Of a DNA stretch of 12,369 nt, positions 3,861-12,247 are shown one piece after another (the stretch's first letter is position 1; each line of letters begins with the position of its first letter). This stretch comes from Candidatus Mcinerneyibacteriota bacterium (GTDB lineage: Bacteria; AUK180; JAQVHJ01), in NCBI GenBank assembly GCA_030630935.1, contig DAOVMD010000042.1:1-12369 (forward strand), in the 5' to 3' direction. A model generated the notes under the pieces. It did not search any database, was not told the origin of the DNA, and saw nothing but the letters and a program-made list of their open reading frames with translations. The translations under genes were made by a program, and so were the position numbers.

Positions 3861-4094
3861 AAGTAATAATTAATAATGAAAAATGTTTTTGCATTACATA
3901 TGATAATGCAGTAGGGGCATTGTTTGCTCTCGCAAACAACAGTTTGAGTACTCAGTTTGTGTTTGCTCCCCTCCCGGGGAGTACCTTACAAATAACGTCT
4001 CAAATCCTAACCCGAACTGAAGAATTAAATAACTACTTTTCTTCTATCTACAATCTATAAAACAACAGTTCTCTGCTCTCTGTTCTCTGTTCTC

Positions 4095-4121
4095 GGTTTG
4101 ATTAACGGAGTTAATCAAACC
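4095..4121. repeat. Perfect 12-bp hairpin with GGA loop
   Basis: GGTTTGATTAAC (4095-4106) and GTTAATCAAACC (4110-4121) are perfect reverse complements around GGA. It is the longest exact snap-back inverted repeat I found. No T-run follows, so it is unlikely to be an intrinsic terminator. Confidence 0.75.
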
Positions 4122-4285
4122 TGCCCTGACCAGAAGAAATAAAACACCCAAACGAAACCAAAGTTTTTATACAATAATTAACGGGATACTTTATTCAGAC
4201 GATAAGGGCGAACTCCGTTCGCCCCTACTAATTTTTCATAAGAATTGTAAACGATTTAAAACGATATTTCCTAAATATCCCATTT

Positions 4286-4311
4286 GGTATACCTGAATTG
4301 GACCATATGGT
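4286..4311. promoter_or_regulatory. Candidate enhancer (activator-binding palindromes)
   Basis: Two perfect palindromes, GGTATACC (4286-4293) and ACCATATGGT (4302-4311), lie 80-105 bases upstream of the -24/-12 element. That is the usual distance for an upstream activating sequence of an NtrC-type regulator. The encoded regulator at 9658-11007 is the obvious candidate to bind here, but this is inference from spacing alone. Confidence 0.4.
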
Positions 4312-4389
4312 ACGCTTTTCAGTAGTTATGTTTTTCTAAAAACGGTGTAAGTGCTGGAATATAGGGAAACAGGTCGTGGCTTATGGACT

Positions 4390-4405
4390 TGGCACTTGAA
4401 TTGCT
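4390..4405 (+). promoter_or_regulatory. Sigma-54 (-24/-12) promoter
   Basis: TGGCAC-N5-TTGCT matches the RpoN consensus TGGCACG-N4-TTGCA almost fully. GG is at 4391-4392 and GC at 4403-4404, with the required 12-base spacing. Transcription should start near 4416, giving a leader of about 40 bases before the ATG at 4457. A sigma-54 promoter cannot fire without an enhancer-bound activator ATPase, so the downstream gene should be tightly conditional. Confidence 0.8.
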
Positions 4406-4456
4406 TAATAAAAGGTAGTTCTTTAACAAAAAACTCTAAAACAAAAGGAGGAGAAG

Positions 4457-6460
4457 ATGAAGAAAAAAAGAACATTTAGATTTCTGGCAGTATTTTTTGT
4501 AGTTTTCTTTGTATTTACAGCATCGGTATTTGCGGATGATGCTGCAGTAATCACAGGTAAGGTTGGTGCCCCCGGCAATGAAGATGTTGACGGTGCTATT
4601 GTAAAATTACTTGGAGATTCTGATCAACTTATTGAAGAGACGCAGGTTAATTCAAGTGGTGATTATGAATTTGAGAACGTACCCTATGGTGACTACCAGA
4701 TGTACGCGTCACTTGAAGGTTTTGAAGATTCCAATACCCATAAGGTTAAGGTAAACCGTCCCGTTGTAAATGTTAATCTTCAGTTAAGGCCCGGAGATTC
4801 AGATCCCGATGATGATTCAGATGATCCCTGCAAGAAATATAAGAAGTTACTCAAAGATGTAAAGGAAGCCATTGAGAAACTTAGGGGCTTGCATCATAAA
4901 GCTGCAGATGAGATTTTAAAAGGCAGGAAGCATTCAGAGTTTGCAATTGAACTATTAAATAATAATAAACCTATTAAGGCTCGTAAAGAGTTTTCTATTG
5001 CAGCAGTCTTAATTGTTAAGGCTGAGCGTAGATTAAGATTTTCAGAAATAGTAATAATGCGATTATCAAAAGAGATCACTATTATTATAAATAACTCTGA
5101 GACTGCTAATCTTTGTCCTGAGACAGTAGAATTATTGAAGAAGGCATTGGTTGTTCTTAAAAAGCTTGGAGAGAAGGACAAGGCTTTATTGATGAAGGCT
5201 TTAAAGATTGAGAAAGAATTAAAGGAAAACTATCCTCAAGCCCGAAAAGCTTTTTTCAATGCGAGGACAAAGGACCTTGACGACTTAGACCGTGAGATTA
5301 AGAAGTTATTCAAGACCGGCGAGAAGTTAGAGAAGATGATTGCCAAGTTGATGAAGAGATCTAATAAGGATTTGAAGAAATTTGATAAACTGATTGAAGA
5401 GATCAAGAAAGATATTGACGATGAGAAGTTTGATGAAGCCTTCTTAAAATACAAGAAGGGTATTTTAATGGATCAGCATTTTAGAAATATTATAAGAAGG
5501 GAGAAGTCATTGTTCTCAAGATTAAGAAGGGCAATCCTTCAATTAATGGACTATCGTGAGTTTATTATAAAGGCAGAGATCAATTATAAGTTCCCTGACA
5601 ACAAATTGAAGATCCTTGTAAAAACCTCTAAGAAACTTGAGAAGGAATTTGAAAATTATGTAAAACGTTTCAAAAAACTTCATAAGGAATTTTTCAAGTT
5701 GACAAAAGCTCTTGAGGATAAGCTTGAAGATTTCATCAAGGAACTTACCCTTAATCTCAAGGACCTGAACAGAGGAGTAAGAGGACTTGTTGAAGAGTTT
5801 GGAAAGGTTATGGAGCGTGCGAAGGACTTTGCAGATGATAATATTGAAGACTTATTTATTGTAGTAGGTGCAGCTCATGAACAATTAAGGGATAGTGAAA
5901 GAATTATTAATGAGAATGAAAGGATCATTGTTGACAGAGGAAATGATGCTTTAGGTGTAAACATTCTCCGAAGAGCAGTTGACCTGAAAAAGTTAACTCC
6001 GGTACAGAAGCAGAAGATCAAGGATGATGCATCTGCATATAATGATATTGTAAATGCAAATAATAATATTCAGAATGAGAAACCCAACCTTGAATCTGCA
6101 TTAACGTCATTAATTCAGGAGACAGATAAAATTGAACAGGGTTTTGAGTTAGATACTGAGGCATTTAAGATTTTTCAGAAAACTCTAAAGCCAATTAAGA
6201 AAACTTTCGATATTTTAAAAATCTTCAGGGAATTAAAACCATTCCTTAGTGATCTTCCACAAGATCTTCAAAGAGAAGTGAAAGAAACGGTTGAGATCTC
6301 ATTTGCTTTAACAAGGATAAACTTCCATCTTGCCGGAGCATTAAAGGGATTTCATTTCACCCTTGTTAAGATTCAGATTCTTTATAAGACAACCGGAACC
6401 AGATTAGATATTAATATTCATAGAGCTGATAATATTAATGATGCTGTTGACTCACTTTAA
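4457..6460 (+). CDS. Large exported protein: carboxypeptidase-regulatory-like domain plus long helical body
   Basis: The protein has 667 residues. A signal peptide (1-26, cleavage after VFA) is followed by a beta-sandwich resembling carboxypeptidase regulatory-like domains at about 31-111. Its signs are ITGKV, then G-A-I-V-K-L-L, then SSGDYEFENVPYGDYQM, a form common in proteins of the bacterial envelope. An acidic linker (about 113-124, Asp-rich) leads to some 530 residues of Lys/Glu/Leu-rich sequence, almost all predictable as helix and probably coiled coil. It has two cysteines in that body (125 and 220) and I see no tryptophan. AGGAGG at 4446-4451 lies five bases upstream of the ATG. It is a single-gene unit under a sigma-54 promoter with a hairpin terminator behind it. 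I do not recognise a family for the helical part; a structural or surface-associated role is inference. Confidence 0.85.
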   Translation: MKKKRTFRFLAVFFVVFFVFTASVFADDAAVITGKVGAPGNEDVDGAIVKLLGDSDQLIEETQVNSSGDYEFENVPYGDYQMYASLEGFEDSNTHKVKVNRPVVNVNLQLRPGDSDPDDDSDDPCKKYKKLLKDVKEAIEKLRGLHHKAADEILKGRKHSEFAIELLNNNKPIKARKEFSIAAVLIVKAERRLRFSEIVIMRLSKEITIIINNSETANLCPETVELLKKALVVLKKLGEKDKALLMKALKIEKELKENYPQARKAFFNARTKDLDDLDREIKKLFKTGEKLEKMIAKLMKRSNKDLKKFDKLIEEIKKDIDDEKFDEAFLKYKKGILMDQHFRNIIRREKSLFSRLRRAILQLMDYREFIIKAEINYKFPDNKLKILVKTSKKLEKEFENYVKRFKKLHKEFFKLTKALEDKLEDFIKELTLNLKDLNRGVRGLVEEFGKVMERAKDFADDNIEDLFIVVGAAHEQLRDSERIINENERIIVDRGNDALGVNILRRAVDLKKLTPVQKQKIKDDASAYNDIVNANNNIQNEKPNLESALTSLIQETDKIEQGFELDTEAFKIFQKTLKPIKKTFDILKIFRELKPFLSDLPQDLQREVKETVEISFALTRINFHLAGALKGFHFTLVKIQILYKTTGTRLDINIHRADNINDAVDSL

Positions 6461-6484
6461 TCATAAGGATTAAATGGTAATTGG

Positions 6485-6525
6485 ATCGGGGACATCTCTA
6501 CGGAGGTGCCCCCGATTTCTGTTGT
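6485..6525 (+). terminator. Strong hairpin terminator after the large exported protein gene
   Basis: The arms 6486-6498 and 6503-6515 (TCGGGGACATCTC and GAGGTGCCCCCGA) form a 13-bp stem with one A-C mismatch and one G-U pair around the loop TACG. Flanking A/T and G-T pairs extend it, and a short T-rich tail follows. It begins 25 bases after the stop codon. Confidence 0.75.
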
Positions 6526-6529
6526 TAAT

Positions 6530-6658
6530 CGTTCTTTCCCTGCAAGCAGTGTTTGTAAAAGGGAGCTTGCTTTGATGTTTGAATTGTTGTAACTCGCTGT
6601 TTGTCATCGCGAGAAGAGTACGGAGTACTCAACGCGGCGATCTCTGAGCAGAGCGAAG
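6530..6658 (+). repeat. Tandem repeat unit, copy 1 (129 bp)
   Basis: This copy matches 6677-6805 at all but four of 129 positions; the period is 147 bp including an 18-bp unlike spacer. The right-hand third carries GTCATCGCGAG, then the hairpin GAGTAC-GGA-GTACTC, then GCGGCGATCTCTGAGCAGAG. This layout recalls the GTCATTGCGAG...GCAATCTC palindromic repeats scattered through many bacterial genomes. Confidence 0.85.
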
Positions 6659-6676
6659 TCTTAATTACATTTGTAG

Positions 6677-6805
6677 CGTTCTTTCCCTTCAAGCAGGGTT
6701 TGTAAATGGGAGCTTGCTTTGATGTTTGAATTGTTGTAACTCGCTGTTTGTCATCGCGAGAAGAGTACGGAGTACTCGACGCGGCGATCTCTGAGCAGAG
6801 CGAAG
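6677..6805 (+). repeat. Tandem repeat unit, copy 2 (129 bp)
   Basis: Second copy of the 6530-6658 unit with four substitutions. A truncated third start, resembling the first 30 bases of the unit (TTTTTCCTGCACTTCGGGTT), follows at about 6806-6833. An open frame crosses this array on the minus strand (6525-6935), but it merely translates the repeats. Confidence 0.85.
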
Positions 6806-6840
6806 GTTTTTCCTGCACTTCGGGTTTGTAAAGAAAAGCG

Positions 6841-6916
6841 AGATTGCCGCTCTTTGCTTTAGCGTGTGGCTGGAGTGTAGCGGAAGTCATCCCGACGCGT
6901 CGGGATAATGATATTC
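6841..6916 (-). repeat. Interspersed palindromic repeat, copy A (inverted)
   Basis: In reverse complement this matches 11901-11977 and 12010-12086 with about five or six differences in 76 bases. It contains the perfect 16-bp palindrome TCCCGACGCGTCGGGA (6890-6905), then ACTTCCGCTACACTCCAGCC, and ends in GGCAATCT. It is the only copy in this orientation. It lies just before the promoter of the four-protein operon. Confidence 0.88.
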
Positions 6917-6957
6917 TAACATTTAACATTGTCAACCCAGCGTTTAATTTGACAATG
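6908..6957. promoter_or_regulatory. Inverted repeat overlapping the operon -35; possible divergent promoter
   Basis: CATTGTCAA (6927-6935) and TTGACAATG (6949-6957) are perfect reverse complements 22 bases apart centre to centre, two helical turns. The right arm contains the -35 of the operon promoter. The left arm gives a second TTGACA on the minus strand, followed after 16 bases by TATCAT (6913-6908), so a divergent transcript across the repeats is possible. The site could equally be a repressor or autoregulator operator. Confidence 0.4.
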
Positions 6958-6977
6958 AAAAAAAATTATGATATAAT
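6949..6977 (+). promoter_or_regulatory. Consensus sigma-70 promoter of the barrel-kinase-regulator operon
   Basis: TTGACA (6949-6954), a 17-base spacer and TATAAT (6972-6977) match consensus at all 12 positions. The predicted start, about seven bases past the -10, is at 6984-6985, and the first ATG is 6985. The mRNA would therefore be leaderless or nearly so. Confidence 0.8.
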
Positions 6978-6984
6978 TTAAACT

Positions 6985-7707
6985 ATGAAGAGAATACTAA
7001 TTTTAATAATAATGATTTTATTCCCGGTTTCAATCTTTTCTGATATTGACTCAGATTTTTCTATTTCTTATGAAGGCGAGAAAATAACAGAGGATAATGA
7101 AACAGTTTGGGAGCAGAATTTCCAATCTGATCTTTATTTTAGTTTTGATTTAGGATATGTAATGAGTTTCAATCTTGGGAATGAATACGAAGAGAATACA
7201 GAGTATAAGGTAAATGAAACATCTATTTCACTTGATTGGATGCCGGGGTTTTCGCATTTTATTATCTTAACATTTTTATATGAAGATTCTACTGACCTTG
7301 ATGGAGACGGTGATGATGATTATACAGAAAACGGGTATCAGTTATTTTATAACTTGGATTTATATAAAAATCATGAGATAGGTCTTAGCTTTGATGAGAA
7401 TATACGAGACTATAGTAACCCGACTGATTTCACAAATGACTATACAGAAATCTTTTCTTACCTGGAATATGAATGGGATATAACGAAGAATATTGAATTA
7501 AGTATTAAAACAGATTACAATGTTAATCATTCAACAGAAGTTTACGATACTTACGAAACAAAAGTTTATGGTATGGAACTTTATTTTAAATTGGGAGATG
7601 TCCGTCTTGCACCTGAGTTTTCGTATGAGAAATCGGAATATGAAACTGATAATAATTACGATGATTATCTTCAAAGAAATTACGAATTAGAATTTGAATT
7701 TTCATGA
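6985..7707 (+). CDS. Probable outer-membrane beta-barrel, N-terminal part (ends at in-frame TGA)
   Basis: The product has 240 residues with a signal peptide (about 1-19, MKRILILIIMILFPVSIFS). It continues as alternating polar/aromatic strands rich in Tyr, Phe, Asp and Glu, such as QSDLYFSFDLGYVMSFNLG and NYELEFEFS. That is the pattern of an outer-membrane barrel with acidic outer loops. One loop carries D-L-D-G-D-G (residues 104-109), like EF-hand or dockerin calcium loops. The TGA at 7705-7707 ends this part in mid-strand, and the same frame stays open for 205 more codons with the same composition (next entry). I read the two parts as one 446-codon barrel interrupted by a single nonsense codon. 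No Shine-Dalgarno precedes the ATG, which fits a leaderless mRNA. Confidence 0.7.
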   Translation: MKRILILIIMILFPVSIFSDIDSDFSISYEGEKITEDNETVWEQNFQSDLYFSFDLGYVMSFNLGNEYEENTEYKVNETSISLDWMPGFSHFIILTFLYEDSTDLDGDGDDDYTENGYQLFYNLDLYKNHEIGLSFDENIRDYSNPTDFTNDYTEIFSYLEYEWDITKNIELSIKTDYNVNHSTEVYDTYETKVYGMELYFKLGDVRLAPEFSYEKSEYETDNNYDDYLQRNYELEFEFS

Positions 7708-7731
7708 GCCAATTACTTTTTTAATTTTGAG

Positions 7732-8325
7732 TTGGAGCCGTCCTATGAATCGAAGAGGTATAGAGTAAATGACAGCATATATCTTGATTATAACGAGTTT
7801 TCTTATGAGCTCGAAACAATCTTTTTATTCCGGCATTTCTATGAGATTCATTTGGAATACGAATTTGAAAAGAGGAACTATATAGATTATAATGAAAAAG
7901 ACCAGTTTGATGCAACGGAAGAGAATTATTACAATACAACAATTGGATTTGAGTTTGTGATTGATAATAAAAAGAACTTTGAACTTGAGATAGGTTATGA
8001 GCAGGAGACGGAAATTAATAATGATATTAATTCTGATGAAGATTATAAGGTTGATGAGTTTTATTTAAATCTTGAATATAACCCTACGCTCTGGCTATAT
8101 TTTGAGATGGATACTCAATCCCGGAATAAGAAGTACAAAACAGTAACTGACCAAATATTTTCAAATTATATTTATTATGATGTTGACTGTTCTGTTACAT
8201 TCAGGATTTCAAAGAAATTCGATATTGAATTGAAATTTGAATTTGAAAAAGAGGATTACGAGGTTATGGTTGAGAATAACGAAGTTAATAAAACCTATGG
8301 AATAACAATGGATTATAATTTTTAA
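7732..8325 (+). CDS. Probable outer-membrane beta-barrel, C-terminal part (same frame after the TGA)
   Basis: This is the continuation of the previous frame: 197 residues from TTG 7732, with open frame back to 7708. It keeps the strand-loop pattern (EIHLEYEFEKRNY, NFELEIGYEQE, KFDIELKFEFEKEDYE) and ends in MDYNF. A C-terminal aromatic residue is the usual recognition signal for barrel insertion by the BAM machinery. It has no signal peptide and no convincing start (the TTG lacks a ribosome binding site), so it can hardly be a working outer-membrane protein alone. It makes sense as the end of the upstream barrel. Alternatives are a recent nonsense mutation, a base error in the assembly, or read-through. 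The kinase starts two bases after its stop. Confidence 0.6.
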   Translation: MEPSYESKRYRVNDSIYLDYNEFSYELETIFLFRHFYEIHLEYEFEKRNYIDYNEKDQFDATEENYYNTTIGFEFVIDNKKNFELEIGYEQETEINNDINSDEDYKVDEFYLNLEYNPTLWLYFEMDTQSRNKKYKTVTDQIFSNYIYYDVDCSVTFRISKKFDIELKFEFEKEDYEVMVENNEVNKTYGITMDYNF

Positions 8326-8327
8326 AA

Positions 8328-9671
8328 ATGAAAAATTTATTTAAACATAAATATTCAAAATGGATAACTATATCTGGCATATTAATCTTTATTTCTTTAA
8401 ACTTAGTTGGCTGGGTATTTTATTTTTATACGAGTAATTTCTTTATGAGCGGGTTGGATAAGAGTCTGCTTGATTCAGGGAGAATGATTGCAAGCTTGGT
8501 AGATGGTAATATTTTGAGGGAGCTTGATGTGGGATTTGATGATCTGTACCCGGTTAAGCGCCAGAGAGAGTTGTTAGCGAATTTTCAACGAGGCGGTCAG
8601 TTTTCAAAGGTTTTAATTTTAAAATCAAATGCAGAAGTTTTAATTTCAACAGATAAAGAATTAAAGATAGGTGATATCCCCGGTTATAAGTTAGTTGATC
8701 TTCCTGAAATCAAGCGTGCTTCAGAGGGAGAAGCAGTTGTTTCAGTTATTTATAAAGTAGATGTGAATTTATTTAAGTCCAGCTATACCCCAATCAGGGA
8801 TCAGTCCGGAAAAGTTACAGGGGTTCTCTGTATCGAAACAAGAGCTGATTTTCTGAAGGTTCTTGATAATTTAAAGATAATACTATTGTTTATCGGTCTA
8901 TTTTCTTTAATTTTCGTTTTAATATTGATTGTTTTTTTTATTAATTTACAAAGTCATCTATTATCAGTCCAGAATAACCTTATCAAGAATGATAACTTTT
9001 TTCGACTCGGAAAACTTTCTTCGTCAGTTGCCCATGAATTAAGGAATCCCTTACAGATTATTAGGGGCAATCTTGAAATCCTTCTTGAAACCGAAACCGA
9101 TGATGAGAATAAGGAGATATTTAAAAGTATTATTGAAGAGATATCACGGATGAATAGGACGATTCAGTCAATGTTAAATATTTCAATTAAAGAGAAGGAT
9201 AAGCGTCAAGCAGTTGATATTAATGAAATTATCCAGGAACTTATAACAGTTTTTAAGCCCAAGATAAAAAATGCCGGGATGGAGATAAATTTTCAGCCCG
9301 GGACTATTCCTGAGATTATTTTTGATAAAGACAAATTTAAACAGGTGCTGATGAACCTGATTCAGAATTCATTTGAATCCTTAAAATCAGGAGGAGAGAT
9401 TTTATTGATTACCAGTTCTAAGGGTAAAAAGATTATTCTTGAAGTAATAGATAATGGGTGTGGAATTGACTACAAATTGCAGGAAAAGGTTTTTGAGCCT
9501 TTTTTCTCTACTAAGACCACGGGTGCAGGGATAGGTTTAGCCGTGGTGAAGAGAATTCTGGAAGAAGGCTATGCCCTGATTGATCTTGAGTCAGAACGGG
9601 AGAAGGGAACAAAATTTACTATTACATTTAACCTTATCAACAGAGAAGTTAAAAGCGATGGAAAAAGTTAA
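8328..9671 (+). CDS. Membrane sensor histidine kinase (NtrB/ZraS-like layout)
   Basis: The protein has 447 residues. TM1 (about 12-35) and TM2 (about 184-207) enclose a periplasmic domain of some 150 residues. It resembles single-cache sensors (VLILKSNAEVLISTD, then YTPIRDQSGKVTGVLCIE near 153-170). After TM2 and a short helix come the dimerisation/phosphoacceptor domain, with His236 in VAHELRNPL, and the ATPase domain. The latter has N box Asn343/Asn347 (MNLIQNSFESL), G1 DNGCGI (375-380), F box FEPFFSTK and G2 GAGIGL (399-404). All catalytic residues are present, so it should autophosphorylate and pass phosphate to the next gene product. There is no cytoplasmic PAS domain. The ATG lies two bases after the barrel stop without a Shine-Dalgarno, so translation is probably coupled. 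The ligand is unknown. Confidence 0.93.
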   Translation: MKNLFKHKYSKWITISGILIFISLNLVGWVFYFYTSNFFMSGLDKSLLDSGRMIASLVDGNILRELDVGFDDLYPVKRQRELLANFQRGGQFSKVLILKSNAEVLISTDKELKIGDIPGYKLVDLPEIKRASEGEAVVSVIYKVDVNLFKSSYTPIRDQSGKVTGVLCIETRADFLKVLDNLKIILLFIGLFSLIFVLILIVFFINLQSHLLSVQNNLIKNDNFFRLGKLSSSVAHELRNPLQIIRGNLEILLETETDDENKEIFKSIIEEISRMNRTIQSMLNISIKEKDKRQAVDINEIIQELITVFKPKIKNAGMEINFQPGTIPEIIFDKDKFKQVLMNLIQNSFESLKSGGEILLITSSKGKKIILEVIDNGCGIDYKLQEKVFEPFFSTKTTGAGIGLAVVKRILEEGYALIDLESEREKGTKFTITFNLINREVKSDGKS

Positions 9672-11007
9672 GATTTTAATTGCTGATGATGAAATCAAGA
9701 TATTAGCAATGCTGAAGAAATACTTAAGTAAATTAGGTTTTGAAATTCTAATTTCAGAGAATGGAAAACATGCCTATGAAGTTTATAAGGAATCTAATCC
9801 GGATATTATAATTTCTGACCTGGAGATGCCGATTTTAAATGGTTTGGAACTTTTGAAAAAAATCAGAAGGGAAGATAAGATAGTTCAGTTTATTTTTATT
9901 ACAGCTTTTGCAAGTACAGATTCTGCAATTGAAGCGCTTAAGTTAGGAGCAGTTGATTATGTTATTAAGCCCTTTAAGTTAGAAGAGATTAAAATTATAA
10001 TTGAACGAATTTTAGAACGGGAAAAATTAGTAAAAGAAAATAAGAATTTAAAGCATGAGGTTTTAAAGAACTATGCCCTGAATTCTTTTATAGGAAAAAG
10101 CAAGAATGTTGAAAAGCTAAAAACCAAACTAATGAAGATATTGAATACCAACTCAACAATATTGATTACAGGAGAGTCAGGCACAGGCAAGGAATTAGCC
10201 GCAAAGATAATCCATTATAATTCCAACAGGGCAGCGTGCCCCTTCATTAGTGTTAATTGTGCTGCGATTCCCGAGCCACTAATTGAATCTGAATTATTTG
10301 GAATTGAAAAGAATATTGCGACCGGAGTAAATGCCCGGCTCGGTAAGTTTGAGATCGCAGATGGCGGCACACTATTCCTGGATGAGATAGGAGATATGCC
10401 GATATTTCTTCAGGTTAAAATATTGAGGCTGCTTCAGGAGAAGGAATTTGAAAGAGTTGGCGGACTAAAAACAGTTAAGAAGGATGTTAGAATAATTGCT
10501 GCAACTAATAAGAATCTTGAAGAAGAAATTAAATCGGGGAATTTCAGGGAAGATCTATTTTACAGGTTGAATGTATTTCCAATAAATATTCCTCCACTCC
10601 GGGAAAGAGCTGAAGATATTTTAATGATTGCTGAAATGGCAATATTTAAACTTTCCGGGTTGAAAGATCTTCTCGAAGATTCAGTGAAGAAGGTTCTGAT
10701 TAATTATAATTGGCCGGGAAATGTAAGAGAATTGCAAAATATCCTGGAATATTCATTAATAATGTCCGAGAGAAAAATAATTAAATTAGAACACCTCCCT
10801 GATAAGATTAAAGGCAAAACAGTAACTGAATCAACAGGGAAACATATTTCACTACCGGAAAGCGGTTTGAAATTTAACGACCTGGAAAAGGATTTACTTA
10901 TCCAGGCACTGAATAAGGCAAAGGGAAATAAAGCCAAAGCAGCCAGGCTTCTTGGTATCTCAAGAAGAACATTGATTTATAGATTAAAAAAGTTTAATAT
11001 AAAATGA
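9658..11007 (+). CDS. NtrC-family sigma-54-dependent response regulator
   Basis: The protein has 449 residues. The receiver domain (1-120) has the acidic pair Asp10/Asp11, phosphoacceptor Asp54 (IISDLEMPI), Thr82 and Lys104. The AAA+ domain (about 143-375) has Walker A GESGTGKE (172-179), Walker B TLFLDEIGD (238-246), arginines of FREDLFYRLNVFP (297, 303) and WPGNVREL (352-359). A Fis-type helix-turn-helix (about 405-449) ends in GISRRTLIYRLKKF. The sigma-54-contacting GAFTGA loop reads NIATGV (219-224), so only Thr and Gly of the core are kept. The start is ATG 9658, which overlaps the kinase end by 14 bases and puts the receiver domain right at the N-terminus. The longer frame from 9580 adds unrelated residues. 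It is the likely partner of the adjacent kinase and candidate activator of the promoter at 4390. Confidence 0.95.
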   Translation: MEKVKILIADDEIKILAMLKKYLSKLGFEILISENGKHAYEVYKESNPDIIISDLEMPILNGLELLKKIRREDKIVQFIFITAFASTDSAIEALKLGAVDYVIKPFKLEEIKIIIERILEREKLVKENKNLKHEVLKNYALNSFIGKSKNVEKLKTKLMKILNTNSTILITGESGTGKELAAKIIHYNSNRAACPFISVNCAAIPEPLIESELFGIEKNIATGVNARLGKFEIADGGTLFLDEIGDMPIFLQVKILRLLQEKEFERVGGLKTVKKDVRIIAATNKNLEEEIKSGNFREDLFYRLNVFPINIPPLRERAEDILMIAEMAIFKLSGLKDLLEDSVKKVLINYNWPGNVRELQNILEYSLIMSERKIIKLEHLPDKIKGKTVTESTGKHISLPESGLKFNDLEKDLLIQALNKAKGNKAKAARLLGISRRTLIYRLKKFNIK

Positions 11008-11891
11008 AAAGAGCTAAATTTATAACTACGATTTTTTTATTACTATTAATGTTTTCCGTAACCATTTATGGAGAACAGATTAGTTTTGATACAGAATATC
11101 AGATTTTAACAAATCTGCGGGATTTTATTTATACAAAATTAAAATCAGGGGAAGATGAATTAGAAAAGATAAACACCGAGCATGTTCATTTAGAAAAAAA
11201 GAGTAAAGCAATAATTAAAAAAATAGAATTAAAGAAAGAAGAATATTTTTCCGAAACTAATAAGAGAGAAAAGAAAAGAATAAAAAAACATTTAACAGAG
11301 CTATTGAACAATTTAATTGAAAACAATCTTGAGTTGAAAAAAAACGAACATGTTCGAAATATAAAGGTTGAAGAGTTTAAGGATTTCGGAAGAGTTCAAA
11401 ATAACATTCTGTTGGAGAATAAGAATAAAGTTTCAAAATCGGAATTATTAGAAAAGGAAAAGTCAGAACTTCTAACTGAATATAAAAGAATAATCCGAGA
11501 GATTAATAGAGTTGTGTTTAAACAAAAATATGTAAATGAACTTTTCCTTCAAAAGCTGGAGCAGATGAGACTGAATAATCGGAAAATTAAGTTTTTAACA
11601 CCATTTGTAACCAATCTTACTTTACAAAAAAATAAAATGGAAGAAATCGTTAAAAATAAGAAAAGTGTAATTTATAGAATTGAACTTGCAAGAATAGATT
11701 CTGAGATTGAAATATTTAATTCAGAAGTTCAAAAATTCGCTTTGAAAAATAAACATATTTATGACTCAATTATTTTAAAAGAATCAAAAATATATTTCAC
11801 AAATCTAATATTAATAAGAATAGAAAACGAATACATATTTTCAAAAAAATATATATCAGAAGAAGATATATTCGATATGGAATCACTTTAA
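11004..11891 (+). CDS. Exported helical (coiled-coil) protein, unknown function
   Basis: The protein has 295 residues. The signal peptide (1-23, FLLLLMFSVTIYG then EQ) is followed by Lys/Glu/Asn/Leu/Ile-rich sequence that is nearly all helix, probably long coiled coil (clear stretches about 45-120 and 140-200). It has no cysteine and no proline apart from one at about 200 (LTPFV). I recognise no family. The ATG overlaps the regulator stop as ATGA, with no Shine-Dalgarno, so it is the last gene of the barrel-kinase-regulator operon and translationally coupled. Like the 667-residue protein upstream it is exported and helical, but I see no clear sequence similarity. Export with a sensor kinase suggests a periplasmic accessory, ligand-binding or structural role, which is inference. 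Confidence 0.85.
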   Translation: MKRAKFITTIFLLLLMFSVTIYGEQISFDTEYQILTNLRDFIYTKLKSGEDELEKINTEHVHLEKKSKAIIKKIELKKEEYFSETNKREKKRIKKHLTELLNNLIENNLELKKNEHVRNIKVEEFKDFGRVQNNILLENKNKVSKSELLEKEKSELLTEYKRIIREINRVVFKQKYVNELFLQKLEQMRLNNRKIKFLTPFVTNLTLQKNKMEEIVKNKKSVIYRIELARIDSEIEIFNSEVQKFALKNKHIYDSIILKESKIYFTNLILIRIENEYIFSKKYISEEDIFDMESL

Positions 11892-11900
11892 ATAAACGTT

Positions 11901-11977
11901 TGAATGTCATTGTCCCGACGCGTCGGGATGGCTTCCGCTACACTCCAGCCACGCGCTAAAGCAAAGAGTGGCAATCT
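11901..11977 (+). repeat. Interspersed palindromic repeat, copy B
   Basis: Starts TGAATGTCATTG and contains the perfect palindrome TCCCGACGCGTCGGGA (11913-11928), then GCTTCCGCTACACTCCAGCC, and ends GGCAATCT. It begins ten bases after the operon stop, so the palindrome may also help end transcription, although no T-run follows. It is in direct orientation with copy C and inverted relative to copy A before the operon. Confidence 0.88.
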
Positions 11978-12009
11978 GGGAGCAAGCTCCCTTTGTGAAA
12001 AAGAACATT

Positions 12010-12086
12010 TGAATGTCATTGTCCCGACGCGTCGGGATGACTTCTGCTACACTCCAGCCATGCGCTAAAGCGAAGCGCGGCAATCT
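12010..12086 (+). repeat. Interspersed palindromic repeat, copy C
   Basis: Repeats copy B at an offset of 109 bp with about six substitutions. The central palindrome (12022-12037) is unchanged. The spacer between B and C (11978-12009) holds the palindrome GGGAGCAAGCTCCC. In reverse complement it resembles the GGGAGCTTGCT segment of the 6530-6805 tandem units, so the two arrays share parts. Confidence 0.88.
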
Positions 12087-12247
12087 ATCTTTTAGAAGAA
12101 TCCCCTCATTTTTTATATTAATATGGAGTATATCAGGTAAATCTCTGGCTATCCTGGTACAAAGCAATAAATTGCTTTGTAATATAAGACTCAATAATAT
12201 TAACAAGAGAAATTTAGTGCATCAATAAAAATAATGCAAATTAATTA

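Follow-up and report, generated by a model that had tools for sequence, protein, structure and literature searches.

The GAFTGA loop is the part of an activator that contacts sigma-54. In the enhancer-binding protein (EBP) PspF the Phe of this loop is essential, and only its replacement by Tyr permits activation (PMC2941729); a survey treats EBPs with altered loops as inactive (PMC3162934), and several EBPs without GAFTGA work at sigma-70 promoters instead (PMC3162934, PMC10274813). For DVUA0100, in contrast, whose loop is GVATGV, the prediction is action at the sigma-54 promoters of its operon (PMC4641369). The published data on altered loops are therefore in conflict, the PspF rule standing against the DVUA0100 prediction; literature searches turned up no measurement of activity for a loop of the xATGV type.

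In ZraPSR of E. coli and Salmonella, the kinase ZraS and the NtrC-type regulator ZraR are accompanied by an exported chaperone, ZraP (PMC4987338, PMC7657598). We analysed a window of 12,369 nucleotides, the whole of contig C283 from a genome of 3.16 Mb (80% complete, 471 contigs), in which genes for a membrane kinase and an NtrC-type regulator lie downstream of a gene for an exported protein, here termed the effector. The best reading of the locus is a ZraPSR-like, one-target envelope system with a non-canonical EBP, and we regard it as likely that the stretch 4279-4460 controls a one-gene sigma-54 unit and that the local regulator drives this unit via upstream sites.

The effector gene and its sigma-54-type promoter

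The effector gene (4457-6460, forward strand) encodes a protein of 667 residues, which was analysed by domain search, structure prediction and Foldseek. A signal peptide is followed by a beta-sandwich (residues ~30-110), an Asp-rich linker, and helices spanning residues 124 to ~629; the predicted model is of good confidence over residues 30-110 and 124-260, but its C-terminus is of poor confidence. The beta-sandwich matches Pfam CarboxypepD_reg (E 3.7e-10) and is CnaB/transthyretin-like; Foldseek matches were to CnaB-type pilin and adhesin domains and concern the CnaB-like domain only, and a search of NCBIfam gave no match for the effector. The product had been described beforehand as an exported helical protein, which is correct with respect to export and helices but incomplete, as the beta-sandwich precedes the helical region. 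From its CnaB-like domain, the effector may have a structural or binding role at the cell surface or in the periplasm.

A motif search located a perfect -24/-12 element, TGGCACTTGAATTGCT (-24 TGGCAC, -12 TTGCT; 4390-4405, forward strand), which conforms to TGGCACN5TTGCW with GG/GC spacing and ends 51 nt 5' of the effector ATG at 4457; the ribosome-binding site is AGGAGGAG. Sigma-54 transcripts are expected to start 12-13 nt after the GC of the -12 element, and from the position of the promoter the effector transcript is predicted to start at ~4415. The preliminary description of TGGCAC-N5-TTGCT before the ATG, with no second -24/-12 element in the window, is thus upheld on both counts, the latter even with two mismatches allowed, a tolerance at which a mean of 1.5 chance matches is expected in a window of such size. 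The exact pattern TGGCAC-N5-TTGC occurs at five sites in the 3.16 Mb genome, and the reversed control pattern at none (zero-mismatch search); by these counts the chance of an exact site in a random 150-bp upstream region is ~1e-4. The four other exact sites are all in intergenic-looking positions, one being 5' of an hsp20-like gene with dnaK downstream (G000:C393:4802-4816, reverse strand), one 5' of an ABC transporter ATPase gene and one 5' of a radical-SAM gene placed after an EBP. A sigma-54-type promoter at G000:C226:3318 lies ahead of a short ORF that looks like a sigma-70 region 2 and may point to a sigma cascade. A promoter scan of the forward strand at 3905-4457 listed nothing sigma-70-like. 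The genome carries rpoN, the absence of which had been named beforehand as evidence against the promoter; the gene encodes a typical region I and an RpoN-box-like ISRRAITKYRE, and adjoins an lptB-like gene.

A single-sequence search of 145 genomes with the effector identified one relative of full length, in a genome (G005) from another family of the same class. A search of other members of the class gave no further effector save a marginal partial match in G006, and a scan of genome contigs using the effector alignment returned the G005 contig only, such that orthologous loci number just two in the genomes searched. The second locus lies on contig JAUXGM010000052.1 of the cold-seep MAG CSMAG_2929, by its naming a MAG of the global cold-seep catalogue (PMC10491686). 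The effectors share 31% identity along their length, and both loci have the gene order effector, beta-barrel-like protein, histidine kinase, NtrC-type regulator. The upstream sequences of the two orthologues are otherwise poorly alignable, yet a perfect element, TGGCACAGTAGTTGCT, is present 30 nt 5' of the most likely ATG in G005 (seven perfect sites in that genome; chance per 150 bp ~2.5e-4). Conservation of the -24/-12 element at an orthologue, proposed earlier as a check, is therefore observed across families.

A G+C-rich hairpin (6483-6518, forward strand; fold z -3.6) follows the effector stop and likely ends the sigma-54 unit; it is missing from the list of a strict terminator scan because it is without a full T run. 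The G005 effector gene, too, is followed by a G+C-rich hairpin sequence, GGGGGGCAGAAAACTGTCCCCC. Further downstream is a sigma-70-type promoter, TTGACA-N17-TATAAT with an extended -10 (6949-6977, forward strand; 12/12 consensus match), with TTGATT-N17-TATAAT at the matching place in G005. Given the hairpin and the separate sigma-70-type promoter, the effector is most likely the sole gene of the sigma-54 unit, and the sensor genes are most likely expressed from their own promoter. Kinase, activator and effector had been proposed to make up one envelope regulon; this may be so, with the kinase and regulator apparently outside the sigma-54 unit, in a separate operon behind the sigma-70-type promoter. 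Between the effector and this operon lies repeat sequence (6525-6935; also 11907-12206), absent from the G005 locus, which has two near-identical direct copies and CGACGCGTCG palindromes at 6893, 11916 and 12025.

The operon begins with a gene for a beta-barrel-like exported protein (6985-8325, forward strand), intact in G005 (436 residues). In the window an in-frame TGA (7705-7707) splits the gene, beyond which the frame stays open as far as a C-terminal Phe, outer-membrane-like in character, and closes shortly before the kinase gene begins. This TGA may be a nonsense mutation, an assembly error or a site of read-through; TGA serves as the stop codon of the regulator gene. Structure prediction for the barrel-like protein was uninformative (pLDDT 29). 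The membrane histidine kinase (8328-9671, forward strand; HisKA and HATPase_c by domain search) is syntenic with that of G005. Downstream of the regulator, an ORF reading gives an exported coiled-coil-like protein (11004-11891, forward strand), which has no counterpart in the G005 locus and is translationally coupled to the regulator by an ATGA overlap of start and stop.

Paired sites upstream of the promoter

Two palindromes had been reported upstream of the promoter, and both exist: GGTATACC at 4286-4293 and the 10-bp ACCATATGGT at 4302-4311, with centres 100 and 83 bp, respectively, upstream of the TGG. Their symmetry is not significant and was rejected as a measure of importance, since the window has 21 perfect 10-bp palindromes versus ~20 in shuffles, and a 10 + 8 palindrome pair turns up in 9% of local shuffles. 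The palindrome evidence consequently rests on conservation. ACCATATGGTAC has an 11/12 match in the G005 upstream region (P=0.001 against shuffles of that region), ACCATATGGT thus being present there in degenerate form at a similar place, whereas GGTATACC has no match in the same region and is not conserved. Motif comparison indicates a better second site in CCCATTTGGT (4279-4288, 8/10), a weaker copy which overlaps GGTATACC and lies 23 bp upstream of ACCATATGGT; its G005 counterpart is ACCATAACGG (7/10), 20 bp from its partner. The copies lie at -88/-111 in the window and at -67/-87 in G005, unstranded and differing in spacing, though each pair is separated by about two turns of the helix.

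At a stringency of 11-12 bp, ACCATATSGT-N0-1-C occurs at one place in the window's genome, the 4302-4311 site. Recurrence of the palindromes near other targets, put forward as a check in the preliminary description, was not seen: at nine further sigma-54-like promoters in the two genomes, no copy exceeded 8/10 and the pair was missing. We regard the ACCATATSGT-like pair as a probable conserved, promoter-specific upstream motif, and grade it no higher because of the weaker copies and a non-significant comparison (P about 0.3) of the two upstream regions made without a preset motif; their global alignment did not bring the elements together. That unguided result, the chance-level frequency of 10-bp palindromes and the loss of GGTATACC would all be expected if the palindromes were incidental, the activator binding elsewhere or not needing to bind; the 11/12 match and the pairing at about two helical turns, absent from other sigma-54 promoters, argue for a specific motif and make incidental palindromes unlikely, with roughly one chance in four left to them in our estimation.

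A regulator with an altered sigma-54 contact loop

Domain search confirmed the earlier assignment of a kinase and an NtrC-type regulator. The regulator (9652-11007, forward strand) has REC, AAA+ and Fis-type HTH domains, with REC, P-loop, Walker B and HTH all intact. The assumption of an ordinary NtrC-type activator holds for this architecture but is questionable with respect to the loop, because the motif ELFGIEKNIATGV at 10291-10328 places NIATGV at the position of GAFTGA; the loop region reads ELFGIEKNIATGVNARLGKFE, compared with ELFGxEKGAFTGA in others. We therefore call the protein NtrC-type by architecture and, with respect to sigma-54, a putative activator. The G005 regulator, 47% identical over its length, has GAATGV, and the two are sisters in an AAA+ core tree (78 cores, loop columns removed; support 0.945). 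Every other loop read from the class is GAFTGA or close to it, and the same holds for the regulator's top matches among 145 genomes. Its next-nearest relatives within the class carry GAYTHA loops and lie in a different, housekeeping-like neighbourhood; they were rejected as copies of the system.

Of 386 genomes put through a whole-genome pattern search, 15 have ATGV-type loops, the window's genome (G000) and G005 with one each. The proteins that carry them are response regulators, GAF-like proteins and kinase fusions; the loops are spread over several branches of the AAA+ core tree, and 12 of the 13 such genomes that lie outside the class have rpoN (a raw count). In G108 (C4:4000-20000), perfect TGGCACN5TTGCT sequences at 9466 and 13081 lie near a kinase-fused EBP with the loop GTATGV, a second case of an ATGV-type loop paired with sigma-54 promoters.

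These observations bear on whether the promoter, if real, is opened by another, canonical GAFTGA activator, the local regulator having lost its sigma-54 contact and acting as a repressor or modulator. The departure of NIATGV and GAATGV from the loops of other EBPs of the class would fit such a loss, as would the block to activation when the PspF Phe is changed to residues other than Tyr (PMC2941729) and the behaviour of Caulobacter NtrC, which lacks GAFTGA and functions at sigma-70 promoters, in part by repression (PMC10274813). Recurrence of xATGV in unrelated EBPs of sigma-54-bearing genomes, however, has the look of a working variant rather than decay; the other functional motifs of the regulator are intact, and a dedicated regulator has been kept beside a sigma-54 promoter in two families. 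We judge a separate activator improbable, by a little more than incidental palindromes, and on balance the sequence comparisons favour activation via sigma-54 by the local regulator despite its altered loop. Far less credible is a chance -24/-12 match with transcription of the effector by some other sigma factor: two-mismatch matches are expected in such a window, but the match is exact, is one of five in its genome against none for the reversed control, recurs at the orthologue in another family, and has no listed sigma-70-like promoter in the 500 bp 5' of the gene to replace it.

The proposed circuit and known systems

Under our preferred reading, in which the local regulator drives the effector, the membrane kinase would sense an envelope signal and phosphorylate the neighbouring regulator, which would bind the pair of ACCATATSGT-like sites ~60-110 bp upstream and, as an AAA+ ring, open the sigma-54 polymerase waiting at TGGCAC-N5-TTGCT. 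The effector, with its beta-sandwich head and helical body, would thereby be switched on, while the barrel-like protein, kinase and regulator would be made steadily from their own sigma-70-type promoter. We infer the binding of the regulator to these sites, the engagement of sigma-54 by NIATGV, and the envelope-related nature of both signal and role. Co-localisation alone is no proof of regulation, as the genome encodes at least eight other EBPs. The earlier proposal that the local regulator controls the effector gains from conserved synteny and the promoter-specific upstream motif, with the link from activator to promoter itself still an inferred one.

The broader claim, that a natural response regulator lacking the loop Phe activates a dedicated, conserved sigma-54 promoter and that scattered EBPs share a second working form of the loop, seems to us evenly balanced. 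If true, a loop long held to be essential would have a second working form in recurrent, scattered EBPs, against the Tyr-only rule from PspF and the practice of genome surveys, which drop motif-less proteins as non-activators. A changed-loop regulator kept beside a perfect sigma-54 promoter and a likely operator in two families, with one regulator and one promoter, offers a small self-contained pair with which to probe the generality of the Phe rule. The locus would also add, from an uncultured bacterial class, a sigma-54 circuit governing an exported protein that combines an adhesin-like domain with a helical body.

In its wiring the locus is most like ZraPSR, sharing a kinase, an NtrC-type regulator and a sigma-54 promoter for one adjacent exported protein; the ZraPSR regulon is likewise very small, and one target is proposed here (PMC4987338, PMC7657598). 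It falls outside that system, having an unrelated effector and another arrangement of promoters. The effector has 667 residues and a CnaB-like domain, with no relation to ZraP detected by NCBIfam, Pfam or Foldseek, and a barrel-like protein forms part of the locus. In ZraPSR the effector and the sensor operon have divergent sigma-54 promoters, whereas the genes here are on the same strand with a sigma-70-type sensor operon. The regulator, with its non-canonical loop, scores 344 bits against a ZraR cut-off of 760 bits.

DVUA0100 of Desulfovibrio vulgaris likewise carries xATGV instead of GAFTGA, and sigma-54 promoters are predicted for the operons next to it (PMC4641369), loop function being predicted in both cases, but it is a one-component regulator of a secretion operon, whereas the present protein is a response regulator with a kinase. 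In the NtrC proteins of Caulobacter and Rhodobacter, which lack GAFTGA, the sigma-54 loop is changed as well (PMC10274813); these proteins have larger deletions and act at sigma-70 promoters, in contrast to the substituted loop and neighbouring sigma-54-type promoter described here.
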